A stretch of DNA of 64,000 nucleotides from positions 1 to 64,000 of the forward strand of contig JAVTVY010018852.1 in NCBI GenBank assembly GCA_036873755.1, given 5' to 3'. Position numbers and translations under genes: made by a program. The stretch comes from Hanleya hanleyi. Its lineage: Eukaryota; Mollusca; Polyplacophora; Lepidopleurida; Hanleyidae. The notes under the pieces were generated by a model. It was given only the letters and a program-made list of their open reading frames with translations, made no database searches and was not told the origin of the DNA. This document shows, in pieces, positions 20,731 through 64,000 of this stretch. How positions within the stretch are numbered: position 1 is the first letter of the stretch; each line of letters begins with the position of its first letter.

Positions 20731-21111
20731 TCACTATGTGTCTATACACCCTAAGGTAGCTCAGTTGATGACAAATTAATGATATCCTGCCTGGTTATCG
20801 ATGTCCCCTCACTGCTCCCATAGAATGAGTTTCTCTCTAAAATTAGCAGGGATTGTGCCTCATTTTGGTGAGATTTCTTGTTGTTGTTGTTGTTATCTAC
20901 GTTGTGCTAAGCACGGGTTCAGTCTTTCACCAAAACAAGGAATTTTTGTATTCCTTACGGTTGACTCAACATTAGTGGTTTGTTATTTTTTATTATTATT
21001 TTTCTGTGGTATTTGACTTCGGTAATGCGTGCTATTCTCCCGGGGAATTTCTGGATAACATTGGTCGATATGACGCCTTATTTGTTTTTTTCGAATATTG
21101 CAGTTGTACAT

Positions 21112-23298
21112 GTTGTTGTCCTAGAAGTCGCAGTCAATGTTGTTCGTGTTGTTGTCCTAGAAGTCGCAGTCAATGTTGTTCGTGTTGTTGTCCTAGAAGT
21201 CACAGTCAATGTTGTTCGTGTTGTTGTCCTAGAAGTCGCAGTCAATGTTGTTCGTGTTGTTGTCCTAGAAGTCGCAGTCAATGTTGTTCGTGTTGTTGTC
21301 CTAGAAGTCGCAGTCAATGTTGTTCGTGTTGTTGTCCTAGAAGTCGCAGTCAATGTTGTTCGTGTTGTTGTCCTAGAAGTCACAGTCAATGTTGTTCGTG
21401 TTGTTGTCCTAGAAGTCACAGTCAATGTTGTTCGTGTTGTTGTCCTAGAAGTCACAGTCAATGTTGTTCGTGTTGTTGTCCTAGAAGTCACAGTCAATGT
21501 TGTTCGTGTTGTTGTCCTAGAAGTCACAGTCAATGTTGTTCGTGTTGTTGTCCTAGAAGTCGCAGTCAATGTTGTTCGTGTTGTTGTCCTAGAAGTCGCA
21601 GTCAATGTTGTTCGTGTTGTTGTCCTAGAAGTCGCAGTCAATGTTGTTCGTGTTGTTGTCCTAGAAGTCGCAGTCAATGTTGTTCGTGTTGTTGTCCTAG
21701 AAGTCACAGTCAATGTTGTTCGTGTTGTTGTCCTAGAAGTCACAGTCAATGTTGTTCGTGTTGTTGTCCTAGAAGTCACAGTCAATGTTGTTCGTGTTGT
21801 TGTCCTAGAAGTCACAGTCAATGTTGTTCGTGTTGTTGTCCTAGAAGTCACAGTCAATGTTGTTCGTGTTGTTGTCCTAGAAGTCGCAGTCAATGTTGTT
21901 CGTGTTGTTGTCCTAGAAGTCACAGTCAATGTTGTTCGTGTTGTTGTCCTAGAAGTCGCAGTCAATGTTGTTCGTGTTGTTGTCCTAGAAGTCACAGTCA
22001 ATGTTGTTCGTGTTGTTGTCCTAGAAGTCACAGTCAATGTTGTTCGTGTTGTTGTCCTAGAAGTCACAGCCAATGTTGTTCGTGTTGTTGTCCTAGAAGT
22101 CACAGTCAATGTTGTTCGTGTTGTTGTCCTAGAAGTCACAGTCAATGTTGTTCGTGTTGTTGTCCTAGAAGTCACAGTCAATGTTGTTCGTGTTGTTGTC
22201 CTAGAAGTCACAGTCAATGTTGTTCGTGTTGTTGTCCTAGAAGTCGCAGTCAATGTTGTTCGTGTTGTTGTCCTAGAAGTCGCAGTCAATGTTGTTCGTG
22301 TTGTTGTCCTAGAAGTCGCAGTCAATGTTGTTCGTGTTGTTGTCCTAGAAGTCGCAGTCAATGTTGTTCGTGTTGTTGTCCTAGAAGTCGCAGTCAATGT
22401 TGTTCGTGTTGTTGTCCTAGAAGTCGCAGTCAATGTTGTTCGTGTTGTTGTCCTAGAAGTCGCAGTCAATGTTGTTCGTGTTGTTGTCCTAGAAGTCGCA
22501 GTCAATGTTGTTCGTGTTGTTGTCCTAGAAGTCGCAGTCAATGTTGTTCGTGTTGTTGTCCTAGAAGTCGCAGTCAATGTTGTTCGTGTTGTTGTCCTAG
22601 AAGTCACAGTCAATGTTGTTCGTGTTGTTGTCCTAGAAGTCGCAGTCAATGTTGTTCGTGTTGTTGTCCTAGAAGTCGCAGTCAATGTTGTTCGTGTTGT
22701 TGTCCTAGAAGTCGCAGTCAATGTTGTTCGTGTTGTTGTCCTAGAAGTCGCAGTCAATGTTGTTCGTGTTGTTGTCCTAGAAGTCGCAGTCAATGTTGTT
22801 CGTGTTGTTGTCCTAGAAGTCGCAGTCAATGTTGTTCGTGTTGTTGTCCTAGAAGTCGCAGTCAATGTTGTTCGTGTTGTTGTCCTAGAAGTCACAGTCA
22901 ATGTTGTTCGTGTTGTTGTCCTAGAAGTCGCAGTCAATGTTGTTCGTGTTGTTGTCCTAGAAGTCGCAGTCAATGTTGTTCGTGTTGTTGTCCTAGAAGT
23001 CGCAGTCAATGTTGTTCGTGTTGTTGTCCTAGAAGTCGCAGTCAATGTTGTTCGTGTTGTTGTCCTAGAAGTCACAGTCAATGTTGTTCGTGTTGTTGTC
23101 CTAGAAGTCGCAGTCAATGTTGTTCGTGTTGTTGTCCTAGAAGTCACAGTCAATGTTGTTCGTGTTGTTGTCCTAGAAGTCACAGTCAATGTTGTTCGTG
23201 TTGTTGTCCTAGAAGTCACAGTCAATGTTGTTCGTGTTGTTGTCCTAGAAGTCACAGTCAATGTTGTTCGTGTTGTTGTCCTAGAAGTCACAGTCAAT
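21112..23298 (+). repeat. 36-bp minisatellite, 61 copies
   Basis: Unit gttgttgtcctagaagtcRcagtc + aatgttgttcgt, 36 bp, 60 full copies plus 27 bp. Almost the only variable site is the R: G (making a CpG) or A. In order (G=R-type, A=H-type) the runs are 2G 1A 4G 5A 4G 5A 1G 1A 1G 7A 10G 1A 7G 1A 4G 1A 1G 5A. Because 36 is a multiple of 3 and the unit has no stop in several frames, it stays open on both strands for over 750 codons, giving 12-residue periodic products (VVVLEV(A/T)VNVVR; CCSCCCPRS(R/H)SQ; TT.RTTLT.TSRT). I treat these as artefacts of the repeat, not genes: it lies in a transporter intron with no acceptable start or splice context. Confidence 0.97.
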
Positions 23299-42682: not shown

Positions 42683-42870
42683 CTTTCTTTACTGCTAAGA
42701 GGGCAAATGGACCTCAATTATGCTTTTTCTATCACTGATGACGTCACATTAGTCTACCCCAAATGGTAAATTAGGATCAAGAATAGTTCAAACACGCCCC
42801 TGCGTACATGAAGATGCTATCTTTCTATAGTATTCCCTGATTTTCCCCTGTATTGTATGGGAATAAGAGG

Positions 42871-43012
42871 ATCCCATATAACTTGATGCTGAGATGAAAT
42901 TTCCCACTCGAGAGAAGGAAAAATCATCCCGACCGAGCCGTTAGGCGAGGTCGGGATGATTTTTCCTTCTCGAGAGTGGGAAATTTCATCTCAGCATCAA
43001 GTTATTTGGGAT
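42871..43012. repeat. Long hairpin, left flank of the recombinase
   Basis: Stem of about 64 bp per side around a 14-nt loop (gagccgttaggcga): outer atcccatataacttgatgct..., inner ...aaggaaaaatcatcccgacc, with its inverse following. Only 2-3 mismatches (ctcgagag against ctctcgag, atata against atttg). It lies 350 bp beyond the 3' end of the recombinase and shares its core with the right-hand palindrome at 45356-45553. Confidence 0.95.
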
Positions 43013-43363
43013 TCTTTTTCCCATATAATTTTTTTAGCCGAAAATATTGCCAACAAAGCACAACAAAGATTTTCAGCTGACGGTTTGTTTACAATTTTAC
43101 TGCGCAGTTATATACATTACGTAGGGTGAACAGGCACAAGGTTTATTACGCAGCAAGATTATTACGCAGCAAGAGAGAGTTCCCAGTTTAGAAATCATTA
43201 TAAACAGTAAATTTATCGAATTTAGCAGTTGAATCAATTCAGTTCGCCTTGGCTAAGGAGTAAAAGCATTACAGTTTGACGAAAGAGTCCAGTCCACAAT
43301 GTAACTCGTGACTGAAATGAACTGAACTTGAAAGTTGAAGCAGAAAGCGCGGGTTTCCAGAGT
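43013..43363. other. Spacer between hairpin and recombinase
   Basis: Non-coding. 'gtttattacgcagcaagattattacgcagcaagaga' (43140-43175) is a two-copy 17-bp tandem repeat. Confidence 0.6.
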
Positions 43364-44899
43364 TTAATCACTCGACAGTCTAGGACGTTTTTCGCCAGTC
43401 GGAAAGTGAGGTAGGGAGAAATTGATATTTATTGTTCCACCTGAAATAGCACAACCACTAAACAAGGGACCCATGGACGAATATGTTTGGAGGTCATGGG
43501 ATTCTTCACTGAGGGACGTGGCAGCGGCCGAGGCTGAACTGCATGTAGAGACACGCTGCGAGGACGATAGGCAGATGGCATCCGTTGGTGTTGGTGTATC
43601 GATAATGCCAGAAATTTCCATTTGTCGCTGCTCCGAAAGAGAAGAATAATTCAGGATAGACTGGACGTTTTTGTGGCCTGTTATCTACATGACTTCTGTG
43701 GGAGGAACTTTACTGTTGACAAGTTTCTGTGCCACATATTTTCGCGCACTCGTGTTGGTGATTTTCTTCTGTTCCGAGAGGCCGGCTGCCGTTTTCATGG
43801 ATCTCATAATGGCGGCAATTTTATTTTCGCCAACGCACTGATTTTTGTACCATACTTCATTTCCACGTGGATTTTTACATTTTGGTGCAATGTAAAACGG
43901 AGAATCTGCACTCTTGGTATATTCTGGACGTTTCTCTGCGTAAAACTTGTACAGGGTCACGGGACAGCGGTCAGACTGAGTGGAATAAATTCGAGGATTT
44001 ACAGTGCGAGTGTCTCGCGGGTTTGCGCCAGTACGGGTCTTGGTCTGCCGTTCACACGAATACTCGAGAAATTCTCGACCTACAGAATCTGTCTTGAGTG
44101 TAACATCTCCCCACTGCAATTGACGATGTTCCTTCACGGCACGGAGGCCAAAATGGGTGGTGTTGTTGAGCCACAGAGTATTTAAAACGCTGTCTGGGGT
44201 ACTTCGTCCGAGCTGGCCGGTTTCGTACAACTTGGAGATTTCATCGTCGGTGATCGGCTCTGACTTACACGGTTTGTTGCCCTTTCCATCCTTCTTAAGT
44301 TGGATTTGTTTGGCTTTTAGAGCCTCTCTCGTTTTTGCAAACTCAATGCTGGTAATGATGGAATACCCATATTCATTTTGTTTTAAGTATCTGTCGAAAC
44401 TGGAAATGAATCCACGAAGACTGTTCGGTTCATAGTCTTCTCCATTCTGTTTCCTTACGGAGACGACAAACTGTGCCAATAATTTGCCCAGAGCGATAGG
44501 CTCAATATCCTTGATATCTCTGGTTTCACCCAATCCACATAAGTATTCAGACAGTACATTTAAGTGTGACTTCGTTTTTCGAGCCGTCTCTTTGTTTTCC
44601 TGAGCTCCAATAAAATCATTCAAGTCAACATCAACAAACCTCGTTGTTTCGGTTTGGTCATCGGTAGGCCCAGCGCTAGGTTGATCAAGTTCAATGTCGT
44701 CGATGTTCAGTGGGTCCAAGTCGTACCATGGCACGTCAATCATTTCGCCTGAATCCATCGTGACACGGAACAAAGTAAATGTTCCCAGTGGTTTGTGCCG
44801 TTTTACGAATGTTCCAACTGCCTTCTGGCTGGATTTCTTTACCCACACACTATCGCCAGGTTTCAAGAAATTCAATTTGATGTCTCTGTCCATCGACAT
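43364..44899 (-). pseudogene. Crypton-type tyrosine recombinase with one internal TAG
   Basis: The frame from ATG 44899 runs 404 codons to TAG at 43685-43687, then stays open in the same frame to 43364. N-terminal ~65 residues form a small beta-rich, SH3-like segment (KPGDSVWVKK). Residues ~95-200 look like an N-terminal SAM-like domain. The catalytic part has THFGLRAVKEH (Arg ~253), ERQTKTRTG (Lys ~287), NTSARK (~381-386, the HxxR-equivalent) and, after the stop, ITGHKNVQSILNYSS with GHK (His ~409) and the nucleophile Tyr (~418). Relatives have Gln at the stop position (CAG to TAG). This is the DUF3504/CryptonA type, also domesticated in KCTD1/ZMYM proteins. The C-terminal Ser/Thr-rich tail ends LPHFPTGEKRPRLSSD. 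Bracketed by palindromes. As read, the product lacks His and Tyr and cannot cut or join DNA. Confidence 0.88.
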
Positions 44900-45110
44900 A
44901 TTAATTCATCAATTATCGGTATTGTCATAATTGTGTAAAGCAGACGATAGTAAATGTTACTAAAAATAGGCGTAGTATATTTGACCTACAAATTTCATTC
45001 ATGAAAATACGAAAGTAGTCCGGCATTACTTCTGATTGGCTAGTGCGCGTCACGCGCTGATCTCGTATACGTATATGGGATGAACTTTCCCACAGGGTGT
45101 TCTCATATGG
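44900..45110. other. 5' flank of the recombinase
   Basis: About 210 bp upstream of its ATG, between the gene and the right-hand hairpins. No promoter motif that I can support. Confidence 0.5.
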
Positions 45111-45555
45111 ATTTCATTGGTTATTATATGGGAATAACGTTTCCCATATAACACAGCGTAAAACTCGTACGGAACAGGGTGGGATACGTCATCCCACACA
45201 CGTATGTGGCCAGTCACTTTGCTTGACACGTGCTGCAGGCAAGATGCGCTCCACCAGCGTTCAACAACATGGTGTGTCGTTGATATTTTTAATAAAATGC
45301 TGATTAAAGTAATGATTAAAATTATATGGGAGAAAGAATCCCATATTAACTCAATCATGGGATGAAAATTCCCACTCTCGAGAAGGAAAATACATCCCAA
45401 CCTCGCCTCGATGGCTCGACCGGGATATATTTTCTTTCCCTCGAGTGGTGGCTCGGTCGGGATGTATTTTCCTTCCCTCGAGTGGTGGCTCGGTCGGGAT
45501 GTATTTTCCTTCCCTCGAGTGGATATTTTCATCCCATGATCAAGTTATATGTGAT
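45111..45555. repeat. Right-hand palindrome cluster of the recombinase element
   Basis: Begins with 'tatatgggaataacgtttcccatata' (45125-45152, a short hairpin). Then at 45356-45553 a larger palindrome: catgggatgaaaattcccactc.. tcgagaaggaaaatacatccc, answered by gggatgtattttccttccctcgagtggatattttcatcccatg. Within its right arm a 37-bp unit (ggtggctcggtcgggatgtattttccttccctcgagt) occurs three times (about 45403-45520). The core matches the left hairpin at 42871-43012, so both ends of the element carry the same palindromic sequence. Confidence 0.9.
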
Positions 45556-45564
45556 CCCCTTCAT

Positions 45565-45720
45565 GTCAGTCCCGCTTTGATTGCGATTTCCCTTATGAAC
45601 ACCTTAAAATTCTTGAAGTATAAATGGGTTCGTACGGACCTTAGCCCCGGGTTAAGCGGAATTAGATACAAGTGACGAAACGTGACGCCGTAGATCGTGC
45701 ACGCTACGCTCGATGTATAC
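45565..45720 (+). repeat. Dispersed repeat R1, 3' fragment
   Basis: 'cccgctttgattg.gatt...atgaacacc' through 'tagccccgggttaagcggaattagatacaagt' to 'atcgtgcacgctacgctcg' matches the end of R1 at 37005-37135. It is a second empty TTAA site for MITE M1. Confidence 0.8.
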
Positions 45721-47130: not shown

Positions 47131-49250
47131 TTGGAGGGTAATTTGGATTTTCGAATCGGACCAAAAAAGGTATCTTGCACTAATAGGCCCCATGTGAGAC
47201 CTGTGTACCAAATTTCAGAAAAGTCCATGAAATATTTCTCAAGAATTCATGGTAACAATCTTTCAAGGGGAAATTCAAGATGGCCGCCTTTTGGCCATAC
47301 TGGATCTTCGATTCGGACTGAAAAAGGTATCTTGCACAACTAGACCATAAGGGGAACCTGTGTACCAAATTTGAGAAAGATCCATGAAGTACTTCCTGAG
47401 GAATAACGATAACAAATTTGCATGGGAAAATCCAAGATGGCGGCTTGTTTTGCCATATTGAATTTTCGAATTGGACCAGAAAAGGTATTTTGTACAACGA
47501 GACGACAAGGTGAACCTGTGTACCTAATTTAACAAAGATCGATGCAGTAGTTCCTGAGAAATCGCAATAACAAAGTTTCATGGGGAAATCCAAGATGGCC
47601 GCCTGATGGACATCTTGGATTTTGGAATCGGATCAAAAAAAGTTTCTTGCACAACTGGACCTCAAGGGGAACATGTGCACCAAATTTGAGAAAGATCCAT
47701 GAAGTAGTTCCTGAGAAAGCGCGATAACAAGTTTTCATATGGGAATCCAAGATGGCTGCCTAGTGGCCATATTGGATTTCGGAATCGGACCAAAAAAGGT
47801 TTCTTGCATAACTAGACCCCAAGGGGAACCTGTGTACCAAATTTGCGAAAGATCCGTGCAGTAGTTCCTGAGAAATCGCGATAACAAGGTTTCATGGGGA
47901 AATCCAAGATGGCTGCCTGGTGGCCATATTGGATTTTCAAATCGGACCAAAAAGGTTTCTTGCACAACTAGATCCCAAGAGGAACCTGCGTAACAAATTT
48001 GAGGAAGATCTATGCAGTTGTTCCTGAGAAATCATGATAAGGTTTTACGGGAAAATCCAAGATAGCTGCCTGGTGGCCATATTGTATTTTCGAATCGGTC
48101 CAGAAAAGGTATCTGCACATCTAGACTCCAAGAGGAACCTGTGTACCAAATTTCAGAAAGATCCGTGCATTAGTTCCTGAGACATCGCGATAACAAGGTT
48201 TTATGGGAAAATCCAAGATGGCCGCCCTGTGGCCATATTGGATTTTCGAATCGGACCAGAAAAAGTATCTGCACAACTAGGCCCCAAGGGGAATATGTGT
48301 ATCAAATTTCAGAAAGATCCATGCAGTAGTTCCTGAGAAATCGTGATAGCAAGGTTTCATGGGGAAATCCAAGATGGCCACCCTGTGGCCATATTGGATT
48401 TTCGAATCGGACCAGAAAAGGTATCTGCACATCTAGACCCCAAGAGGAACCTGTGTACCAAATTTCAGAAAGATCCATGCAGTAGTTCCTGAGAAATCGT
48501 GATAACAAGGTTTCATGGGGAAATCCAAGATGGCCGCCCTGTGGCAATATTGGATTTTCGAATCGGACCAGAAAAGGTATCTGCACATCTAGACCTCAAG
48601 GGGAACCTGTGTACCAAATTTCAGGAAGATCCGTGCCGTAGTTCCTGAGAAATCGCGATAACAAGGTTTCATGGAGAAATCCAAGATGGCCGCCCTGTGG
48701 CCATATTGGATTTTCGAATCGGACCAGAAAAGCTATCTGCACAACTAGGCCCCAAGGAGAATCTCTGTACCAAATTTCAGAAAGATCCATGCAGTAGTTC
48801 CTGAGAAATCGTGATAACAAGGTTTCATGGGGAAATCCAAGATGGCCGCCCTGTGGCCATATTGGATTTTCGAATCGAACCAGAAAAGGTATCTGCACAT
48901 CTAGATCCCAAGAGGAACCTGTGTACAAAATTTCAGAAAGATCCGTGGAGTAGTTCCTGAGAAATCGCGATAACAAGGTTTCATGGGGAAATCCAAGATG
49001 GCTGCCCTGTGGCCATATTGGATTTTCGAATCGGGCTAGAAAAGTTATCTGCACAACTAGACCTCAAGGGGAACATGTGTGCGAAATTTCAGAAAAATCC
49101 GTGCGGTAGTTCCCGAGAAATCGCGATAACAAGAATTGTTTACGGACGGACGACGGACGGACGGACTGACGGACTGACTGACTGACGACGGACCACGGAC
49201 GAAAGGCGATTTGAACAGCCCACCATCTGGTGATGGTGGGCTAAAAATGT
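47131..49250 (+). mobile_element. Pearl/Helentron-type element: ~13 x 156 bp, ACGG run, terminal hairpin
   Basis: About 13 tandem units of ~156 bp, each with 'aaatccaagatggccgcc', '.tggccatattggattttcg', 'aatcggaccagaaaagg', 'gggaacctgtgtaccaaatt', 'gatccatgcagtagttcctg' and 'agaaatcgcgataacaagg'. Units in the middle (48200-49000) are the most alike. Then an acgg/gact microsatellite (49142-49196) and, at the end, gcccaccatctggtgatggtgggc (49220-49243), a 10-bp-stem terminal hairpin followed by 'taaaaatg'. This order, tandem core then ACGG repeat then 3' hairpin, is the pearl (HINE) form of non-autonomous Helentrons known in bivalves. Minus-strand frames through it are shadows of the repeat. 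Confidence 0.85.
49142..49196 (+). repeat. ACGG/GACT microsatellite
   Basis: (acgg)n with gacg and (gact)n interruptions, inside the pearl-type element, between the tandem core and the terminal hairpin. Confidence 0.9.
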
Positions 49251-50788
49251 AAGCAAATATTTTTTTTGCAATTTTTTCCACTCGATTAAATCGGCTCGGG
49301 TCGTCTAAGCGTGTGACCTCACCCGGACCTTGCCGCTCTCTATCGGAGAAGGCGAAAATATAATGACATTGCATGGAGATATATTACAAACCAAACCTCT
49401 TTTACATTGGAATGATTACAATTTGACAGGAATAGATATGACTGAAATAGTGTTGAAGTACTAAATACACTCACTGTAATTTATTTTCTCACATCACCGA
49501 GGCCAAAAGCAATGTGATACACGTATACTATACAAATGCTGTATCGTATAGTATCTTTTTTGTTAAAGATCGTTTAATTGGAGCTTCCAACCAAAATGAT
49601 GACTTTTCCACCAATCAAAGTACATCTTACATCCAGAGCTATACCGGGACTACTTTCATTACAACATCACATTGGAATTCCATTCAATAAAGTACCCATT
49701 AACCCCATCTGTCGTATGCAGTGTTGTTTAATGTTATATTGACAACAACACAATGGATACTTTCAATATTACCATCGGAACTGTGTTCGAACAGATGAAG
49801 GGAGAAAAGGGAAAGTGATTGGGATAGTTATACCACTCGGAACATTCCCATTATTCAAAATTGAGAGTTTCGGGAGCTCCAGTTTCCGAATGATTCTGAC
49901 TGATCCACGCTACAGATTTTCTGTGATTCCGTCAACGGCACCCAATAAGGTCCGTATATACAGTTCGATAAAATTCTCTCTACTTAATTAAATATTTATA
50001 AATAACAACAAAACTTCATATGTGAATCACAATATATTATTATAAACAGAGAAGAAATTTTACAATTATCTAGGCAACATCGTATGGAAAATACTGGGGA
50101 TACTCTGCAAATTACACATCAATATTTGTTTTTACTTTTTGACCCAGAACCGTGGATTCTAATTTTTAATTATGCAATACGGAGATGTAAATAAAATGAG
50201 CGTGAGCAATGAACTGAAATTAGTTTTTTAATTGTATATAGGCCGTGGAAAGTATTGGGTATGTTGAAGGTGTAGGCCGGCCAGACAGAGAAAGTCATTC
50301 GGCACAAAGCTGGGCAACAACACCCCCACCAGCCGTACGGTGAGCGTCATAAATGGTCCGTATTGTTCTGAAGAGGAGTTGTCTCCCCCACCTTGTATAC
50401 GGTCCATTTTGGATGTTTTTAAATCGAATTGAATAAAGCAACACAAATATTATTTCATATTTCTCTAAACCGGCAAGCCTTTGGTGTTAGACTTCATATT
50501 TCGCTACTCGGTATAGCATACACCAGTGCATTATTGTGCTGGTATTTGTTGAGGAATTGGCATTCTATGTAATGATTAATAGAAATGTGAAACTCAAACA
50601 GAAAACAAATGCGCTCCTTAACGTACGGTACCGTTGTTATTATTTGGTTAATGTAGACCTAAGCAGGGTTGGAGGGAGTAAGGAGGAAAATTTAATTTCC
50701 TCGTTCCTTGACCCCCCACCCCACCCCACCCCCTCCATAGAACTGTTCTGGCCCTCCCCCCCCCCTAGAACTGTTTCTATCTTGTGGC
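49251..50788. other. No recognisable gene
   Basis: 1.5 kb non-coding. 49244-49275 ('taaaaatgtaagcaaatatttttt.tgca') is found inverted at 52396-52425, so the pearl element may sit next to, or in, a repeat shared with the nuclease palindrome's flank. 50690-50815 is a C-rich low-complexity stretch. Confidence 0.5.
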
Positions 50789-50865
50789 TACCCGCCCCCC
50801 CACACCTTCTCTCCTTTACGGTAAACGAGCCCCTGTGATAGGACTGTCTAATAATACCTACTGTA

Positions 50866-52036
50866 TTGTTGTCGTCATTGACGAACAGGTCGAGCCCACT
50901 GATATCAGCAGGAACACAACATCTGAACCAACCAAGACCAGTAGCCAAATCAACAATCAACAAGGGGCAGGGACAGACAGGAAAGAAGCCGAGATTTTTA
51001 CCGGTCGTCGACAGTGATATCGACATCATCATTGGCCAAGAAGAGAATATCAATACCGCCAGGAAAACCCGCCGAGATATACAATTAGTTAAAGAGTTTT
51101 TGAATCTCCCAGAAATAAATGAAAACAGAGAGATTTCACCAGTGGAATTGAATAACTTGTGTAAATTTATTATTGGTCTGAGAAAAGCGGATGGGGATAA
51201 CTATGAGCCTACCAGTTGGAAGTATTGAAAGATTGAATTTCATGAGGTGAGGGAGATCCTCAAAGCAAAACAAAAACAGCTGAAACGGGAAGGCAATGGA
51301 AACTTACCTACCAAATTCGATGCTTTAAATGATGATGAGGTAGAACAACTTTACGCGTCCGGTCATCTTGGTAGAAATGAACCGGATACTCTGTTGAATA
51401 CGGTATGGTTCAATAACCCCGCGTCTTCTTTGGCATGAGGGGGTTACAGAACCTCATAATATGAATTGGGGCGATCTCAAGCTGTGTATTGACAGCGACG
51501 GGAAAGAATATTTCGAGTACAACGAACGCCAGACGAAAAATCGCACAGGGGTAAATATCCACGATGTTCGGCAAGTAACCCCAAGGCATCCTCACAGGTG
51601 TCCCGTGGAAACCTACAAAGCGTATAGAGACAAATGTCCCTCTGATTACTGCGAAAAGGATTCCCCATTCTATATGGCCTCCAACACAAGGAAAGATGGG
51701 TCGAAGGAGGGGGAACAGTGGTTTAAGCGGAATCGAGTGGGTGTAAATACAATATCTGGAATGATGAAACGAATGGTAGAAAATGGTAAACTATGGGGTG
51801 ATAAACACTTCACAAATACCAGCGCAAGGAAACATTTGATGCAAAAATTAACAGAAAAAGATGTTCCTTCTACGCACCTAATGCAAATTTCATGCCATCG
51901 AACCATCCAATCCGTAAATAATTACAGTCACATCACAGAGCAACAACACTGTCGTATTAAAGGACTAATAAACTCACTGTCATCTATTGCATCAGCCTCA
52001 CAGTGCAAAAGGTTTTCTCTGATGCGTTTGGCGTAA
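50866..52036 (+). pseudogene. Second Crypton-type tyrosine recombinase, decayed
   Basis: Paralog of 43364-44899 on the opposite strand. IGQEENINTARKTRRDIQL..KEF matches the first copy's IGAQENKETARKTKSH; GLRKADGDNYEPTS ends at a TGA where about 25 codons are missing; then EVREILKAKQKQLKREGNG and LGRNEPDTLLNTVWFNN; a frameshift near 51415 hides the catalytic FGMRG; then MNWGDL, ERQTKNRTG, FTNTSARKHLMQKL and HLMQISCHRTIQSVNNYSH. So the His (in CHR instead of GHK) and Tyr survive here, unlike in the first copy. Ends at TAA near 52036. No long hairpins flank it. Lesions: one stop with deletion, at least one frameshift. Confidence 0.87.
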
Positions 52037-52464
52037 AATCCTGCCGACCGACGTTATGCACCCACTGTTTCAGTACATCTGGTTTCAACATTGCGAACCA
52101 GTTTTGTTAGAACAGCCAAACGCCACACACTGCGGCATGACGCCCGTGTATTTGCGGAATATTGGCACACTACCACTACCAAATTATAACAGTATACAAA
52201 ATATAAACCTGTAGTCCCGAGAGCTTCTCATACTGTAACGTACAGGGCGAAAGTCAACCTGTAACCATCTGGGTCATCTATACACGATAAGACTGACCCT
52301 GGGATTGTGTGTATCCATTCTCAGTCTACTTTAGGCATTTGCAAGAGGGAATTTTCCTGAAATCAATACTTCGATATGATTAGATCGGCGGTCCAAAATC
52401 GCAAAAAAATATTTGCTTACATTTTTGGATACGGGGGAGATAAATCTTTCGTTCTAGTAGGCTC
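52037..52464. other. Spacer with a shared repeat
   Basis: 52250-52375 ('gtaaccatctgggtcatctat...gaccctgggattgtgtgtatccatt...tcctgaaatcaatac') matches the minus strand of 30543-30655, the end of the insertion in the 30 kb LINE. Otherwise nothing recognised. Confidence 0.65.
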
Positions 52465-54084
52465 ATTTTGTTGGAATCCGTGACCATTTTTTTCCTACCT
52501 TTCTTTCTTGATAGATTTGACAACCGGGACAATTTTAGAAGAAAATGAGCTCCTATGCACCTCTGAAAAGTGACGGGGTCCGCCATCTTGAAAAACATAA
52601 AATATAATATCTTTGGCACCAGATGAGCTAGAAGGACGAATGAGGTGTCATTTTCCACTAATTATGGCATTACAAATCCACTAGAATGGTTATTGGAGAG
52701 TTTCAGGATCATCCTGACCTCTAAATCCAAGATGGCCGTGGTGCGCCATCTTGAAAAATGTCAAACTGTAATATCTCTGGCACCAGATTGGCATGTGAGG
52801 TGTTGTTTTCCTCTAATTTCAGCATGACACTACTGATTCTAAGCTACATACTAGTATTACATGTTTGCTTAATGAGTGCATGTCTACATTTAATGTGACA
52901 CTACTGAACAACATACTAATATTAGCAATAATACACGTTTGCTTGATGTGAATCCATGTCCACATTTGAAAATGTGACACTACTTATTCTAAACTACATA
53001 CTGGCTGTACATGTATATCACGCTTCACTGTCACTACATGGTTCACAGCTGTCGGGATCACTGTCATCACTTTCGCTGCTATCATCACTGCTGTCCTGTG
53101 CCTGCGGGTCTATGGGTAGGGATATGGATAAGGGAAGTGGGGGCTGGGTAGAACGGATAGGCAGACATAGGCCATTCACGAGATGCCATCCATGGCCGAT
53201 CGGTGAGGGGTGACTTTGGAGCTTGTAATACTTTTGCAAATAGGCGAGATAGTTTGCACGCTCCAAGAGTGGGCGGAGACTGGCCGAGTCAGGTACAAGT
53301 CGGATAGTGCTTTTTTTCTTCTGAGCTCTCCATTTCGCTACTCTCGCTTCTCCCAGGGTCTTGTTTTTGGTATCACAATAGACGTATCGAATAACAAATC
53401 GCTCCAAATCACTGATGACCTCTTGTGTCACTGAGAGCTGTGTATCACATGTTGCTAGTAGGTTGTGTGCCTCATTAGACTTCTCCAGGCGATTTGCGAT
53501 GAGCTTCTTGCTTGCTCCATAGAAGCCAGAGTTATGGTCACATCCAGTGAGAACATATAGTTGGATGCTGGATGCAGCCATTGCCTAATTACACAAACAC
53601 CGGGCAGTAATTAACTGACGTTTGCGTTTCACACACAGAAGCGCTGATGTACTCTGAGCAACATATGCCGCTAGTACGTAGTTGTCGGTGTCCTCAGTAT
53701 CAAGAACGACAGCTGCTGTGTAGCCCTCTGATCGTAGCACACTATATATGGTGAACATGGCCGTGTCTGCCTCTGCATGGGAGCATGTGAGCCCTGACAA
53801 AAGCTTGTCTGTAGTGAGATTCGTCGAAGTGCTGCCCACTACACAGTAGATGATCTCCATGGTAGTTATTTCTGGTGTTCTCTGGAATGCCGTTTGTAGA
53901 AATGCCTGAAGAAGAATCTTGTTCTCCGGTTTACCCAGGAGAGCATGGAAGTCTTTACGAGAAGGAAATTTATCTACTGACTTCATGTAGACATTGCTGA
54001 TTGGCAGGGATTTATCTGGCGCAGTATTAGCTCACTGTCTTTGATAGTGTAGTTCTAATCATATGAATCACTGACGCAAATGAT
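52465..54084 (-). repeat. Left arm of a 3.5-kb imperfect palindrome
   Basis: Pairs with 54343-55938 over its whole length with small indels: e.g. 'ggaatccgtgaccattttttt' against 'atggtcgcggattccaa' at the outer end, and 'actgtctttgatagtgtag' against 'ctacactatcaaagacagt' at the inner end. The arms are about 1.6 kb and the spacer about 258 bp. Outside the gene, each arm keeps the same 3' region, with duplicated 'cgccatcttgaaaaa...tctggcaccaga.' and 'agtgtcaca' blocks. Confidence 0.9.
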
Positions 54085-54264
54085 CCGCTCAGCATGCTTG
54101 TTTCTTGCCAGAACGAAGTGCACCAGCTTCTCTGTATAATCTCCCAAGGTATACTTGGTCCCATCTCCCTTCTCTCTGTCTTCAGTGGTAGGAGTGGTCA
54201 GGCGCCAGATGAGGCCCATGTCAATAATAGACGTGTATACATCAGGCTCTGGAATGACAGTCAC
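53018..54264 (-). pseudogene. PIN/FEN-like nuclease family gene, left-arm copy (broken)
   Basis: Minus strand, three open pieces. 54264-54055: MTVIPEPDVYTSIIDMG..., ending SYD then TAG where the other arm has CAG, followed by a frameshift. 53986-53585: KSVDKFPSRKDFHALLGKPENK... with SHAEADTAMF and VVLDTEDTDNYVL, ending CLCN then TAG where the other arm has GAG. 53581-53018: VLTGCDHNSGFYGASKKLI... to an acidic Ser/Asp-rich tail ending CSDSEA. (E)ADT...D(T/x)D...TGCD is the acidic-residue pattern of a widespread invertebrate multi-copy protein family that resembles PIN/FEN nuclease folds. That assignment is inference from the motif pattern. Complete N-terminal part only in this copy. Not functional as read. 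Confidence 0.7.
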
Positions 54265-54342
54265 AGTTAGTTTTTGCTAAAGCTTGGTTTTCTGTGTCTT
54301 ACGGATGGTTCCATTAGCGTTGAAGATGGCATGCGTAAGACA
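54085..54342. other. Spacer at the centre of the palindrome
   Basis: About 258 bp, not duplicated. Its left part codes, on the minus strand, for the first 60 residues of the left-arm gene. The right-arm copy starts only after this point, so the right arm lacks that N-terminal portion. Confidence 0.75.
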
Positions 54343-55412
54343 CATTTGCGTCAATGATGCATATGATCAGAACTACACTATCAAAGACAGTGAGCGAATA
54401 CTGCGCAAAAAAAAACTGCCAATCAGCAATGTCTACAGAAAGTCAGTAGATAAATTTCCTTCAAGTAAAGACTTCCATGCTCTCCTGGGTAAACCTGAGA
54501 ACAAGATTCGTCTTCAGGCATTTCTACAAACGGCATTCCAGAGAACAGCAGCAATAACTACCATAGAGATCATCTACTGTGTAGTGGGCAGCACTGAGAC
54601 GAATCTCACTACAGACAAGCATTTGTCGGGGCTCACATGCTCCCATGCAGAGGCAGACACGGCCATGTTCACCATATATAATGTGCTACGATCAAAGGGC
54701 TACACAGCAGCTGTCGTTCTTGATACTGAGGACACCGACAACTACGTACTAGCGGCATATGTTGCTCAGAGTACATTAGGGCTTCTGTGTGTGAAACGCA
54801 AAGGTCATTTAACTACTGCCCGGTGTTTGTGTAATGAGGCAATGGCTGCATCCATCATCCCACTACTTGTTCTCACTGGATGTGATCATAACTCTGGCTT
54901 CTATGGAGCAAGCAAGAAGCTCATCGCAGATCGCCTGGAGGAGTATAAAGAGGCACACAACCTACTAGCAGCATGTGATATACAGCTCTCAGTGACACAA
55001 GAGGTCATCAGTCATTTGGAGCGATTTGTTTTTCGATACGTCTATTGTGATACCAAAAACAAGCCCATGGGAGAAGTGAGAGCAGCGAAGTGGAGAGCCC
55101 AGAAGAAGAAAAAAAACCACTATCCGAGTTGTACCTGATTCGCCCAGTTTCTGTCCACACTTGGAGCGTGCAAACTATCTCGCCTATTTGCAAAAGCATT
55201 ACAAGCTCCAAAGTCACCCCTCACCAATCGGCCATGGGTGACATCTCGTGAATGGCCTATGTCTGCCTATCCGTTCTACCCAGCCCCCACTTCTCTTATC
55301 CATATCCCTACCTAGAGACTCGCAGGCACAGAACATCAGCAGTGATGATAGCAGCGAAAGTGATGACAGTGATCCCGAAAGCTGTGAATCGTGTAGTGAC
55401 AGTGAAGCGTGA
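54343..55412 (+). pseudogene. PIN/FEN-like nuclease family gene, right-arm copy (broken)
   Basis: Uninterrupted from about 54343 to 55138: CVNDAYDQNYTIKDSERIL..., KSVDKFPSSKDFHALLGKP, THLSGLTCSHAEADTAMF-like (SHAEADTAMF), VVLDTEDTDNYVLAAYVAQ, LLVLTGCDHNSGFYGASKK, ERFVFRYVYCDTKNK and WRAQKKK. A frameshift in the following A-run (aagaagaaaaaaaa) ends it at CT-TGA. The C-terminal acidic tail is still readable in another frame (DDSSESDDSDPES... to TGA at 55410-55412). Upstream, the open frame extends to 54284 but that part is spacer, not homologous N-terminus. The damage is complementary to the left-arm copy. Confidence 0.72.
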
Positions 55413-55938
55413 TAAACATGTACAACCAGTATGTAGTTTAGAATAAGTAGTGTCACATTTTCAAATGCGGACATGGATTCACATCAAGCAAACATGTATT
55501 ATTGCTAATATTAGTATGTTCTTGAGTAGTGTCACATTAAATGTAGACATGCACTCATTAAGCAAATACGTAATAATTGTATGCAGCTTATAATCAGTAA
55601 TGTCTTGCTAAAATTAGAGGAAAACAACACCTCACATGCCCATCTGGTGCCAGAGTTATTACAGTTTGTCATTTTTCGAGATGGCGGACACCGACCATGC
55701 CAGAATTAGTGGAAAATGATACCTCAGCCGTCCTTCCAGCTCATCTGGAGCCAGAGATATTACATTTTATGTTTTACAAGATGACGGATAGCGGCCATTT
55801 TGAATATTGCACTCTAGCCAAGTTAGCCGTCACTTTTCTGATATGCATAGGGGCTCATTTTCCTCTAACCTGGCCCCGGTTATCAAATCCATCAAGAAAA
55901 AAGGTAGGAACAAAATGGTCGCGGATTCCAACAAAATG
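54343..55938 (+). repeat. Right arm of the 3.5-kb imperfect palindrome
   Basis: Mirror of 52465-54084. The non-coding 3' part (55413-55938) keeps 'tagtgtcacatt', 'cctcacatg.ccatctggtgcc' and 'tttcaagatggcgga'-like blocks, matching the inverse of 52480-53010. Confidence 0.9.
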
Positions 55939-56411
55939 ACCCTACTATTCACTGTACACATTAGTCACATGGTTTCTTCTCCTTTAATGTAACAATTTAC
56001 TTAGACTGCATCTGTATATGTGTGGCATTGCGTCAGTGAAACAACAGAAAAGTCCATGGAACATTGAGTTTATTCACTGAGGTGGTATAGACAGTACCCA
56101 ATCTTAACATAGTAATATCCTATAATTGCTCCCCAACCCAATCGTATATGACGCTATGTAGGCGACATATCCAAATGGGAAGCAGACAGGATTTAATTTT
56201 AATTAGATTGAGACCGTACCATTTCTCTTTAATCCAACAATCATAGTGATAGGGATAAGATATGCTGCACCATTTTGTGTTAGTAATGGACAGATATACA
56301 GCGCTTCACCACATAACTGCGGTGTTATTAGGGACATATGGTCATGACATATTTATCGTATGTACCTAGGTGAATAACACTTTCAAACACGCTGACTGGA
56401 TAATCGTGGCA

Positions 56412-60409: not shown

Positions 60410-63400
60410 GAATGCTCAGTGTATCTGACGAAGTGGTAATCTCTGAAAATAAGAATGCTCAGTGTATCTGACGAAGTGATTATCTCTGAGAATAAGAATG
60501 CTCAGTGTATCTGACGAAGGGGTTATCTCTGAGAATAAGAATGTTCAGTGTATCTGACGAAGTGGTTATCTCTGAGAGTAAGAATGCTCAGTGTATCTGA
60601 CGAAGTGGTTATCCCTGAGAATAAGAATGTTCAGTGTATCTGACGAAGTGATTATCTCTGAGAATAAGAATGCTCAGTGTATCTGACGAAGTGATAATCT
60701 CTGAGAATAAGAATGTTCAGTGTATCTGACGAAGTGGTTATCTATGAGAATAAGAATGTTCAGTGTATCTGACGAAGGGGTTATCTCTGAGAATAAGAAT
60801 GCTCAGTGTATCTGCTGAAGTGGTTATCTATGAGAATAAGAATGCTCAGTGTATCTGCTGAAGTGGTTATCTATGAGAATAAGAATGCTCAGTGTATCTG
60901 CTGAAGTGGTTATCTATGAGAATACGAATGCTCAGTGTATCTGCTGAAGTGGTTATCTATGAGAATGCGAATGCTCAGTGTATCTGCTGAAGTGGTTATC
61001 TATGAGAATACGAATGCTCAGTGTATCTGCTGAAGTGGTTATCTATGATAATCGAATGCTCAGTGTATCTACTGAAGTGGTTATCTATGGGAATACGAAT
61101 GCTCAGTGTATCTGCTGAAGTGGTTATCTATGAGAATAAGAATGCTCAGTGTATCTGCTGAAGTGGTTATCTATGAGAATACGAATGCTCAGTGTATCTG
61201 CTGAAGTGGTTATCTATGAGAATAAGAATGCTCAGTGTATCTGCTGAAGTGGTTATCTATGAGAACAAGAATGCTCAGTGTATCTGCTGAAGTGGTTATC
61301 TATGAGAATACGAATGCTCAGTGTATCTGACGAAGTGATAATCTCTGAGAATAAGAATGTTCAGTGTATCTGATGAAGTGGTTATCCCTGAGAATAAGAA
61401 TGCTCAGTGTATCTGCTGAAGTGGTTATCCCTGAGAATAAGAATGCTCAGTGCATCTGATGAAGTGGTTATCCCTGAGAATAAGAATGCTCAGTGTATCT
61501 GCTGAAGTGGTTATCTATGAGAATAAGAATGCTCAGTGTATCTGATGAAGTGGTTATCCCTGAGAATAAGAATGCTCAGTGTATCTGATGAAGTGGTTAT
61601 CCCTGAGAATAAGAATGCTCAGTGTATCTGAAGAAGTGGTTATCCCTGAGAATAAGAATGCTCAGTGTATCTGACGAAGTGGTTATCCCTGAGAATAAGA
61701 ATGCTCAGTGTATCTGATGAAGTGGTTATCCCTGAGAATAAGAATGCTCAGTGTATCTGACGAATTGCTTATCTCTGAGAATAAGAATAATGCTCAGTGT
61801 ATCTGACGAAGTAATTATCTCTGAGAATAAGAATGCTCAGTGTATCTGACGAATTGGTTATCTCTAAGAATAAGAATAATGCTCAGTGTATCTGACGAAG
61901 TGATTATCTCTGAGAATAACAATGCTCAGTGTATCTGACGAAGTGGTTATCTCTGAGAATAAGAATGCTCAGTGTATCAGACGAAGTGATTATCTCTGAG
62001 AATAAGAATGCTCAATGTATCTGACGAAGTGGTTATCTCAAAGAATAAGAATGCTCAGTGTATCTGAAGAAGTGGTTATCTCTGAGAATAAGAATGCTAA
62101 GTGTGTCTGAGGAAGTGGTTATCTTTGAGAATAATAATGCTCAGTGTATCTGACGAAGTGATTATCTCTGAGAATAACAATGCTCAGTGTATCTGACGAA
62201 TTGGTTATCTCTGAGAATAAGAATAATGCTCAGTGTATCTGACGAAGTGATTATCTCTGAGAATAACAATGCTCAGTGTATCTGACGAAGTGGTTATCTC
62301 TGAGAATAAGAATGCTCAGTGTATCTGACGAAGTGATTATCTCTGAGAATAAGAATGCTCAGTGTATCTGACGAAGTGGTTATCTCTAAGAATAAGAATG
62401 CTCAATGTATCTGAAGAAGTGGTTATCTCTGAGAATAAGAATGCTCAGTGTATCTGACGAAGTGGCTATCTCTGAGAATAAGAATGCTCAGTCTATCTGA
62501 CGAAGTGATTATCTCTGAGAATAAGAATGCTCAGTGTATCTGACGAATTGGTTATCTATGAGAATAAGAATAATGCTCAGAGTATCTGACGAAGTGATTA
62601 TCTCTGAGAATAACAATGCTCAGTGTATCTGACGACGTGGTTATCTCTGAGAATAAGAATGCTCAGTGTATCTGACGAAGTGATTATCTCTAAGAATAAG
62701 AATGCTCAGTGTATCTGACGAAGTGATTATCTCTGAGAATAAGAATGTTCAGTGTTTCTGAAGAAGTGGTTATCTCTGAGAATAAGAATGCTCAGTGTAT
62801 CTGACGAAGTGGCTATCTCTGAGAATAAGAATGCTCAGTGTATCTGACGAAGTGGTTATCTCTAAGAATAAGAATGCTCAGTGTATCTGACGAAGTGATT
62901 ATCTCTGAGAATAAGAATGTTCAGTGTATCTGAAGAAGTGGTTATCTCTGAGAATACGGATAATGCTCAGTGTATCAGACGAAGTGATTATCTCTGAGAA
63001 TAAGAATGCTCAGTGTATCTGACGAAGTGGTTATCTCTAAGAATAAGAATGCTCAGTGTATCTGACGAACTGATTATCTCTGAGAATAAGAATGTTCAGT
63101 GTATCTGAAGAAGTGGTTATCTCTGAGAATACGAATGCTCAGTGTATCTGCTGAAGTGGTTATCTATGATAATCGAATGCTCAGTGTATCTACTGAAGTG
63201 GTTATCTATGGGAATACGAATGCTCAGTGTATCTGCTGAAGTGGTTATCTATGAGAATACGAATGCTCAGTGTATCTGCTGAAGTGGTTATCTATGAGAA
63301 TAAGAATGCTCAGTGTATCTGCTGAAGTGGTTATCTATGAGAACAAGAATGCTCAGTGTATCTGCTGAAGTGGTTATCTATGAGAATACGAATGCTCAGT

Positions 63401-64000
63401 GTATCTGACGAAGTGATAATCTCTGAGAATAAGAATGTTCAGTGTATCTGATGAAGTGGTTATCCCTGAGAATAAGAATGCTCAGTGTATCTGCTGAAGT
63501 GGTTATCCCTGAGAATAAGAATGCTCAGTGTATCTGATGAAGTGGTTATCCCTGAGAATAAGAATGCTCAGTGTATCTGCTGAAGTGGTTATCTATGAGA
63601 ATAAGAATGCTCAGTGTATCTGATGAAGTGATTATCTCTGAGAATAAGAATGCTCAGTGTATCTGCTGAAGTGGTTATCTATGAGAATACGAATGCTCAG
63701 TGTATCTGATGAAGTGGTTATCCCTGAGAATAAGAATGCTCAGTGTATCTGATGAAGTGGTTATCCCTGAGAATAAGAATGCTCAGTGTATCTGAAGAAG
63801 TGGTTATCCCTGAGAATAAGAATGCTCAGTGTATCTGACGAAGTGGTTATCCCTGAGAATAAGAATGCTCAGTGTATCTGATGAAGTGGTTATCCCTGAG
63901 AATAAGAATGCTCAGTGTATCTGACGAATTGCTTATCTCTGAGAATAAGAATAATGCTCAGTGTATCTGACGAAGTAATTATCTCTGAGAATAAGAATGC
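60410..64000 (+). repeat. 43-bp minisatellite, ~83 copies, reaches the window edge
   Basis: Unit aatgctcagtgtatctgacg + aagtggttatctctgagaataag, 43 bp. Variants fall in blocks: ctgacgaa/ctgctgaa/ctgatgaa/ctgaagaa, tctctgag/tctatgag/tccctgag, and units with a 3-bp insertion (aagaataatgctc). A block from about 61046 to 61832 (marked by 'gataatcgaatg', 'gagaacaag', 'gaattgcttat' and 'gaagtaattat') recurs in the same order from about 63167 to the window end, so it was duplicated as a unit of about 0.8 kb. Lies in intron 1 of SLC22 gene 2. The array continues beyond 64000. Confidence 0.97.

Follow-up and report, generated by a model that had tools for sequence, protein, structure and literature searches.

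Introduction

Animal Cryptons are reported without terminal repeats in the cited part of the survey by Kojima and Jurka, which also gives a Crypton lineage as the origin of the human genes ZMYM2, ZMYM3, ZMYM4, QRICH1, KIAA1958 and KCTD1, and describes domesticated DUF3504 genes as being without most of the catalytic residues (Kojima and Jurka 2011, PMC3212892). According to the relevant passage of a further article, target duplications are not known from Cryptons (PMC3627910). For the bacteriophage CTX, the section of a review used here describes two attachment (att) sites, attP1 and attP2, which are oppositely oriented at a distance of about 90 bp and form a 150-bp forked hairpin in which one pair of strands is exchanged (PMC3089051). 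The present study concerns a stretch of 64,000 nucleotides from the polyplacophoran mollusc Hanleya hanleyi (assembly GCA_036873755.1, contig JAVTVY010018852.1, positions 1 to 64,000; contig C16806 in our numbering), which is referred to as the window. Positions 42864-45134 of this window very probably hold a Crypton that was active recently; the only gene of this DNA transposon is that of a Cre-like tyrosine recombinase. The identity of the element, its ends, its target and its empty sites are well supported, and a tentative proposal is made for the route by which its strands are exchanged. So far it has been unclear where animal Cryptons end and by what rules their targets are chosen.

Results and Discussion

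Copies, ends and target of the element

Copies of the element were compared within the window's own genome, which comprises 2.48 Gb in 52,793 contigs. A search of this genome with the recombinase DNA gave 121 candidates, and the 40 that were scored contained 48 matching stretches of 96-100% identity. The window and the 20 best-scoring other contigs (L009-L028) make up the 21 loci considered here. At 19 of these 21 loci, a total of 21 elements had both ends at the positions corresponding to 42864 and 45134, with flanks that vary. The left end TAAGAGGATCCCATATAACTTGATG was exact in all 21 elements, and the right end was either TTTCATTGGTTATTATATGGGAA or a form of it with one or two substitutions. 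L013 has a small deletion behind the left end, in the left arm, and L028 holds two duplicated copies that are both without the left end. The divergence of 21 copies from the majority sequence was 0.22-1.96%. Genome-wide, there were 76 exact right ends (none for a reversed control) and 70 exact left arms, both counts including the duplicated contigs L026 and L028. These could be paired into 57 elements, leaving 13 left and 19 right ends unpaired. The sizes of the paired elements (16 at 2.09-2.29 kb, 16 at 1.88-1.89 kb, 17 at 1.04-1.15 kb and 8 others) indicate that two internally deleted sizes (about 1.15 and 1.88 kb) have each multiplied as non-autonomous forms, or were duplicated together with their surroundings. 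Scans of the genome_contigs and viral_contigs collections for relatives gave 49 and 37 pattern stretches, respectively, none of which was confirmed.

A near-identical empty site was found at L030 (C34795), where the surroundings of the window element, but not 42864-45134 itself, are present as six colinear pieces (97-100% identity, small gaps). The joined flanks read straight through this site and are exact. The Crypton thus entered a palindrome of which one half was a host half-site and the other the matching right end of a non-autonomous relative. Entry into this near-perfect palindrome, which the relative's right end had completed, explains why palindromes are found on both sides of the window copy. 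The insertion point of the L012 element is uninterrupted in all 40 scored places (548 candidates; 81-86% identity). These places, which match the joined L012 flanks, are copies of a repeat that the L012 element entered, and no junction gap was seen in the six that were read. The elements of L021 and L022 are placed between GGGAT and TACTGCTG, and in the repeats into which they inserted, other units have an unbroken GGGATTACTGCTG (9 places for the L021 flanks and 5 for those of L022). At L030, L012, L021 and L022, insertion therefore took place without target duplication or loss, as is expected of a Crypton.

Host bases were tabulated for 20 sites, with the omission of L028, which is without the left end, and of one L026 element that is a duplicate; the L011 tandem was entered through its combined outer flanks. 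On the left side, all 20 sites have G at -5, 16 have G at -3 and 19 have A at -2; on the right side, 16 have A at +2, 15 have T at +7 and 15 have T at +8, with C/A at +9 to +12 in 9-12 sites each. The single-position binomial tails of these preferences range from 1e-14 to 1e-2. The target consensus is a degenerate palindrome, GGGAW|AW....TTCCCA, resembling the element's own junction. Twelve non-autonomous insertions agree less fully (G at -3 in 11, A at -2 in 12 and T at +8 in 10); these were drawn from 20 loci, the other eight of which were without one end, in tandem, duplicated or in the same host segment.

The recombinase

The tyrosine recombinase that the initial annotation had placed at 43364-44899 on the minus strand is real, as its frame matches DUF3504 with an E-value of 1.7e-28 (a match to QRICH1 stayed under its cut-off), but in the window copy the frame is interrupted by a stop after 404 amino acids (aa). 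The remainder at 43364-43684, taken alone, had no match in Pfam. In 9 of the 21 copies the recombinase is intact, with a length of 511-514 aa and a common start and tail, and an intact copy matches both DUF3504 and Phage_integrase. R252, K286, R385, H408 and Y417, which we take to be the catalytic set, are invariant among 30 aligned sequences. Named protein relatives are nearly all from animals, namely hemichordates, molluscs and cnidarians (Ptychodera, Porites, Mizuhopecten and others), and one is labelled as a metagenome-assembled genome of the Gammaproteobacteria.

The structure of the recombinase was predicted with a mean predicted local distance difference test score of 80.7 and a predicted template modelling score of 0.59. 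In a structure search, human QRICH1 (9hjt) ranked first, with an E-value of 1.9e-09 and template modelling (TM) scores of 0.28 by query and 0.45 by target, and was followed by Cre-loxP complexes (best E-value 2.6e-07, TM 0.44/0.67). The recombinase fold is thus predicted to be Cre-like. Approximately the first 62 residues of the L010 recombinase have a Tudor/SH3-like predicted fold that weakly resembles the PHF1 Tudor domain. The matches to PHF1 Tudor structures are weak, with E-values of about 0.05 and TM scores by target of 0.65-0.80, or 0.16 in one longer chain. Such an N-terminal Tudor-like fold, as modelled, might link the recombinase to chromatin.

The element contains no other frame of at least 150 aa, except for an overlapping antisense frame of 187 aa. 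It was considered whether a DDE-type inverted-repeat transposase could move the unit, with the recombinase as cargo. The short terminal inverted repeats (ATCCCATATAA / TTATATGGGAA) would suit such an enzyme, but there is no further frame of that length apart from the antisense one, no target duplication of the kind that DDE enzymes leave, and the crossover falls within a lox-like site, so that this explanation has hardly any claim to belief. Altogether, the element has the gene content of a Crypton, that is a tyrosine recombinase without a DDE transposase, and the suggestion of the initial annotation that a Crypton-type element is present is borne out.

The joined ends and the position of the crossover

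When the right end is joined to the left end, as it is in tandem copies, a lox-like inverted repeat, TTATATGGGAA|TAAGAGGATCCCATATAA, is formed with junction arms of 10-11 bp. The exact junction TTATATGGGAATAAGAGGATCCCATATAA is present at five places in the genome, two of which are tandem arrays of autonomous elements (C18622, C22277) and three tandem arrays of non-autonomous elements (L055-L057). The spacer TAAGAGG stands before 69 of the 70 exact left arms. The exception, C26338:32565, starts 116 bp from an inverted left end and is for that reason taken for an inner arm. The same heptamer follows only 2 of the 76 exact right ends, both of them autonomous tandem junctions. An independent count of this polarity is provided by the 20 loci with a left end among the 21 loci, which were chosen by recombinase similarity alone. 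TAAGAGG was on the hairpin end and the host spacer on the other end at all 20. Moreover, the last base of the right end is A in 20 of 20, and the host base at -1, which differs from it at 13 of the 20 sites, was never taken up. Judging from these insertions, the crossover is at one fixed point, and TAAGAGG remains with the hairpin end.

The left hairpin and a second att-like site

The long hairpin reported at 42871-43012 in the initial annotation exists, and its full arms extend somewhat further (Table 1). The arms are 75 nt long and 91% complementary, with 4 nt between them, and the predicted folding energy is -82.7 kcal/mol, whereas 200 shuffled sequences averaged -17.9 (z -23.9). The core TATATGGGA-N6-TTCCCATATA, with up to 3 mismatches, gave 5 matches at 3 places in the window, against 0.04 expected. 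The element and its non-autonomous neighbour together contain 5 perfect TGGGA-N7-TCCCA sites, and the remaining 61.3 kb of the window has none. At its outer base the hairpin consists of the left att arm, and at its inner base of a complete, inverted att-like site (43001-43029, designated attP2), which reads TTATATGGGAAAAAGAATCCCAAATAAC on the other strand. The idea that the palindromes serve as recombination sites therefore holds to the extent that they carry what appear, by their sequence, to be such sites, but the hairpin is present at one end of the element only. With its inverted att arms and terminal hairpin, the element differs from the animal Cryptons, for which no terminal repeats were reported. 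As the missing terminal repeats are an observation made in 2011 and no definition, we file the element as a variant Crypton.

The inner site was read in 23 left ends, 7 from the 21 autonomous and 16 from the 20 non-autonomous loci, with the damaged L019 and L020 excluded. It had at most 3 mismatches in 18 of them and 6-12 in 4, partly owing to short indels; in the remaining one, L040, it could not be located. In the predicted single-strand fold over a real right-left junction (L011:5752-5940), the junction site and the inner site pair, with bulges in and beside the spacer. The energy of this fold is -83.8 kcal/mol, against -18.5 for shuffles (z -20.2). The hairpin arms were compared between autonomous (10) and non-autonomous (11) left ends, which showed that, in 4 of 29 positions of the commonest arm pairs, both sides had changed and still paired; in 1, one side only had changed. 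At C39400:6592-6773, two left ends face each other within 182 bp and form an apparent hairpin-only miniature element.

A second Crypton family in the same genome

At 51461-52036 of the window there is a decayed recombinase, which has 44% identity with the first recombinase over 177 aa. The stretch 51000-52036 is a relic of a second Crypton recombinase, with relatives in L058-L062. A search with 50600-51958 (40 scored of 2764 candidates) gave one relative of 93% and eight of 82-83% identity, and three of these are near-identical to each other downstream of the gene. Two of the three were followed, and both have at their end a hairpin that is unrelated in sequence (z -17.1), beyond which the host DNA differs. 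In one copy the terminus, GTGATAA-TCTCTAT|TTATCAC, has a lox-like look, and a similar inverted site, as judged by eye, stands at the inner base of the hairpin. A TATC flank after the spacer was suggested by two copies and was dropped, as it is present at only 2 of 6 spacer-bearing termini.

These copies bear on the view that the hairpin represents an independent palindromic miniature element, which entered a Crypton ancestor once and has since been carried without function. The apparent hairpin-only pair of left ends and the varying length of the hairpin are consistent with such an origin. We nevertheless regard it as improbable, because the hairpin is at the extreme terminus with the att arm itself as its outer base, because it is kept, with paired changes, by non-autonomous relatives of different interior, and because an unrelated hairpin is found at the same place in two copies of the second family.

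A possible route of strand exchange

The element likely moves as a circle. The recombinase would bind the TGGGA/TCCCA arms, with the extra copies near both ends as accessory sites, and the same enzyme would also move the non-autonomous relatives that retain both ends. On folding of the hairpin, the junction site would pair with the inverted second site and thereby form a site for one-strand exchange. One strand would then be exchanged, at the fixed point, with the degenerate host palindrome, and the joint would be resolved by replication. Single-strand integration of this kind, through hairpin-paired sites, is to our mind the most likely route of strand exchange, a preference that we hold tentatively and with less than even confidence. 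Two traits of CTX- and integron-like integration point towards it, namely the two inverted att sites that, according to the predicted fold, can pair through a hairpin, and the single crossover point in the 20 loci and the genome counts.

Alternatively, the circle may integrate by canonical double-strand exchange of the Cre, lambda or Tn916 type, in which case both strands would be exchanged at either end of a 6-8 bp spacer, the mismatched spacer would always be resolved one way and the hairpin would be an accessory binding or regulatory region. We consider this a realistic possibility, if not our choice. It is in keeping with the predicted Cre-like fold, the conserved residues presumed to be catalytic, the lox-like geometry with arms of 10-11 bp and the extra TGGGA-N7-TCCCA sites. 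In Tn916-like systems, however, exchange of both strands across unlike spacers is expected to yield both arrangements, since such spacers should segregate both ways, and the polarity was the same at 20 of 20 loci. The reverse arrangement was seen at none of them, which counts against two-strand exchange across unlike spacers. The same applies to the last base of the right end, which is A throughout in spite of the 13 host sites with another base there.

Several observations weigh against the reading of the element put forward here. Neither a circle, nor a single-stranded form, nor activity was observed; what the assembly contains is tandem right-left junctions, and these can also be explained by insertion into an existing att site. 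The inner sites are damaged in L019 and L020, the hairpins are shortened in L009, L017, L021 and L025, and L013 has its small left-arm deletion. Since conversion can make the two arms of a palindrome alike, the paired changes support selection for pairing but do not prove it. The right half of the target is weaker than the left and only weakly conserved. The presence of the duplicated contigs L026 and L028 means that the 76 right ends and 70 left arms are not all independent. Lastly, only 6 of the 267 exact termini of the second family carry the spacer (with TATC after it in 2), so that the claim of polarity rests on the first family.

The non-autonomous neighbour and the feature list

The initial annotation had combined the left hairpin and a palindrome cluster to the right of the recombinase into one unit of 2.7 kb with paired palindromes as its ends. 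The two do have sequence in common, in the form of 86-nt inverted arms at 42865-42950 and 45476-45561 that match at 81%. However, the element measures 2.27 kb, copies running from 42864 to 45134 at 19 of the 21 loci without the right cluster, and the cluster lies in a neighbouring non-autonomous element of opposite orientation. The 2.7-kb unit was rejected because other copies cease to resemble the window at about 45134-45152. The stretch 45135-45600 is part of a different and larger family (1867 candidates, 40 of them scored), and the cluster is present without a recombinase in the empty site L030. We therefore see practically no room for a 2.7-kb element. Recombinase copies lacking palindromes thus exist as far as the right cluster is concerned, which the autonomous copies match only through their own left hairpin. 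They do not exist for the left hairpin, which is kept though shortened or damaged in some copies.

The predicted non-autonomous relatives do exist, as the neighbour at 45141-45562 and its larger family. The left end of this family, TAAGAGGATCCCATATAACTTGATCATGGG... (with variations), and its right end, ...TATTATATGGGAA, are common to the autonomous element, and the stretch 45152-45317 had no match in autonomous copies. The 37-bp units in the hairpin arm of the neighbour (Table 1) number more than 10 in L031.

Elsewhere in the window, there is a large inverted repeat at 52455-55947 with 697-nt arms (94%) and open reading frames on both strands; one of these, at 53018-53581, has 57 protein relatives. 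Tandem arrays are found at 21103-23298 (36 bp x 61, 99%), 47143-49133 (156 bp x 12.7) and 60410-64000 (43 bp x 83).

Table 1. Features of the Crypton, its target site and the adjacent non-autonomous element in the window.
Feature	Position	Strand	Remarks
Host target half-site GTATTGTATGGGAA, left flank	42850..42863	+	Adjoins constant left end; runs into 45135 bases in L030
Autonomous-type Crypton element	42864..45134		2,271 bp; no target-site duplication; constant ends, variable flanks, empty sites
Left terminus TAAGAGGATCCCATATAACTTGATG	42864..42888	+	Spacer TAAGAGG plus att arm; spacer on 69/70 exact left arms
Left terminal hairpin	42871..43012 (initial annotation)		Full arms 42865-42939 / 42944-43018; autonomous and non-autonomous copies
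Second, inverted att-like site (attP2)	43001..43029	-	Inner hairpin base; contains TGGGATTCTTTTTCCCA; in most left ends read
C-terminal remainder of recombinase frame beyond stop	43364..43684	-	Seen from intact copies
Tyrosine recombinase frame	43685..44899	-	404 aa then stop; broken in window copy
Perfect TGGGA-N7-TCCCA site, subterminal	45076..45092		Near right end
Right terminus CATTGGTTATTATATGGGAA	45115..45134	+	76 exact genome copies
Perfect palindrome of two facing right ends	45124..45151		Element / non-autonomous neighbour; chance mean 0.00
Host spacer TAACGT of target site	45135..45140	+	Read in empty site L030
Non-autonomous relative	45141..45562	-	422 bp; opposite orientation; termini like autonomous family; contains right cluster
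Perfect TGGGA-N7-TCCCA site	45180..45196		Non-autonomous element
attP2 counterpart	45323..45347		Non-autonomous element
Terminal hairpin of non-autonomous element	45347..45547		Arms 45347-45407 with 45487-45547, 84%
Perfect TGGGA-N7-TCCCA site	45358..45374		In hairpin arm of non-autonomous element
37-bp tandem repeat, 3 units	45412..45522	-	Within hairpin arm

Comparison with known systems

If single-strand integration is true, it would be the counterpart, in a eukaryote and with a recombinase of the element's own, of the integration of phage CTX and of integrons, and at least two Crypton families of this genome would achieve it with site sequences that are unrelated to each other. A literature search, judged by titles and the starts of abstracts of mostly open-access articles, gave no description of such an arrangement or of single-strand exchange for a eukaryotic transposon; if confirmed, such exchange would be new for these elements as far as those titles and abstract starts show. 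The family is young and multicopy and offers exact ends, intact genes, empty sites and tandem junctions, so that the way in which its recombinase recognises sites and exchanges strands can be tested directly. It is also a possible source of new site-specific recombinases.

With the animal Cryptons (CryptonA) the element shares, according to the cited part of the 2011 survey, a single gene for a DUF3504-type tyrosine recombinase and abundant non-autonomous derivatives (PMC3212892). It is unlike them in that its ends are att half-sites with a lox-like junction, combined with a long hairpin and a second, inverted att-like site. With CryptonF and CryptonS it shares the presumed circle, and TATGG, given in that part of the survey as the terminus of most CryptonS, may be set beside its right end TATGGGAA (PMC3212892). 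The terminal direct repeats of 4-6 bp that are described there are a feature of CryptonF and CryptonS and not of our element (PMC3212892). Host GGGAW at -5 to -1 does resemble the right-end GGGAA, but mismatches at -1 are never found in the right end. CryptonV is a further Crypton with a target preference, but it is cited, in the passage used, as inserting in microsatellites (PMC8869645). For Crypton families of salmon, a link between their termini and the human repeats Eulor5/6 has been described (PMC5753468).

Like phage CTX, as described in the section of the review cited above, the element has two opposed att sites joined by a hairpin and spacers of unlike length (PMC3089051). A single fixed crossover in CTX may be presumed from the exchange described there. 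In contrast to the element, which has its own recombinase, CTX relies on the host's XerC and XerD and has a single-stranded genome (PMC3089051). The element would thus, by analogy, work like CTX without being a member of that group. Integron cassettes, in the account drawn on here, have a palindromic att structure, one-strand exchange and replicative resolution, of which the latter two are hypothetical for the element; moreover, attC is a single site that folds and has hardly any conserved sequence, whereas in the element two conserved sites would pair (PMC4792948). The Vibrio SE elements likewise use tyrosine recombinases with a strand-biased outcome, but, as far as the cited part of their description goes, the 6-bp spacer of the SE circle comes from the donor flank, whereas that of the element is constant, and inverted-repeat motifs were undetected in the attB of SE-6945, whereas the target of the element is a degenerate palindrome (PMC9345347).

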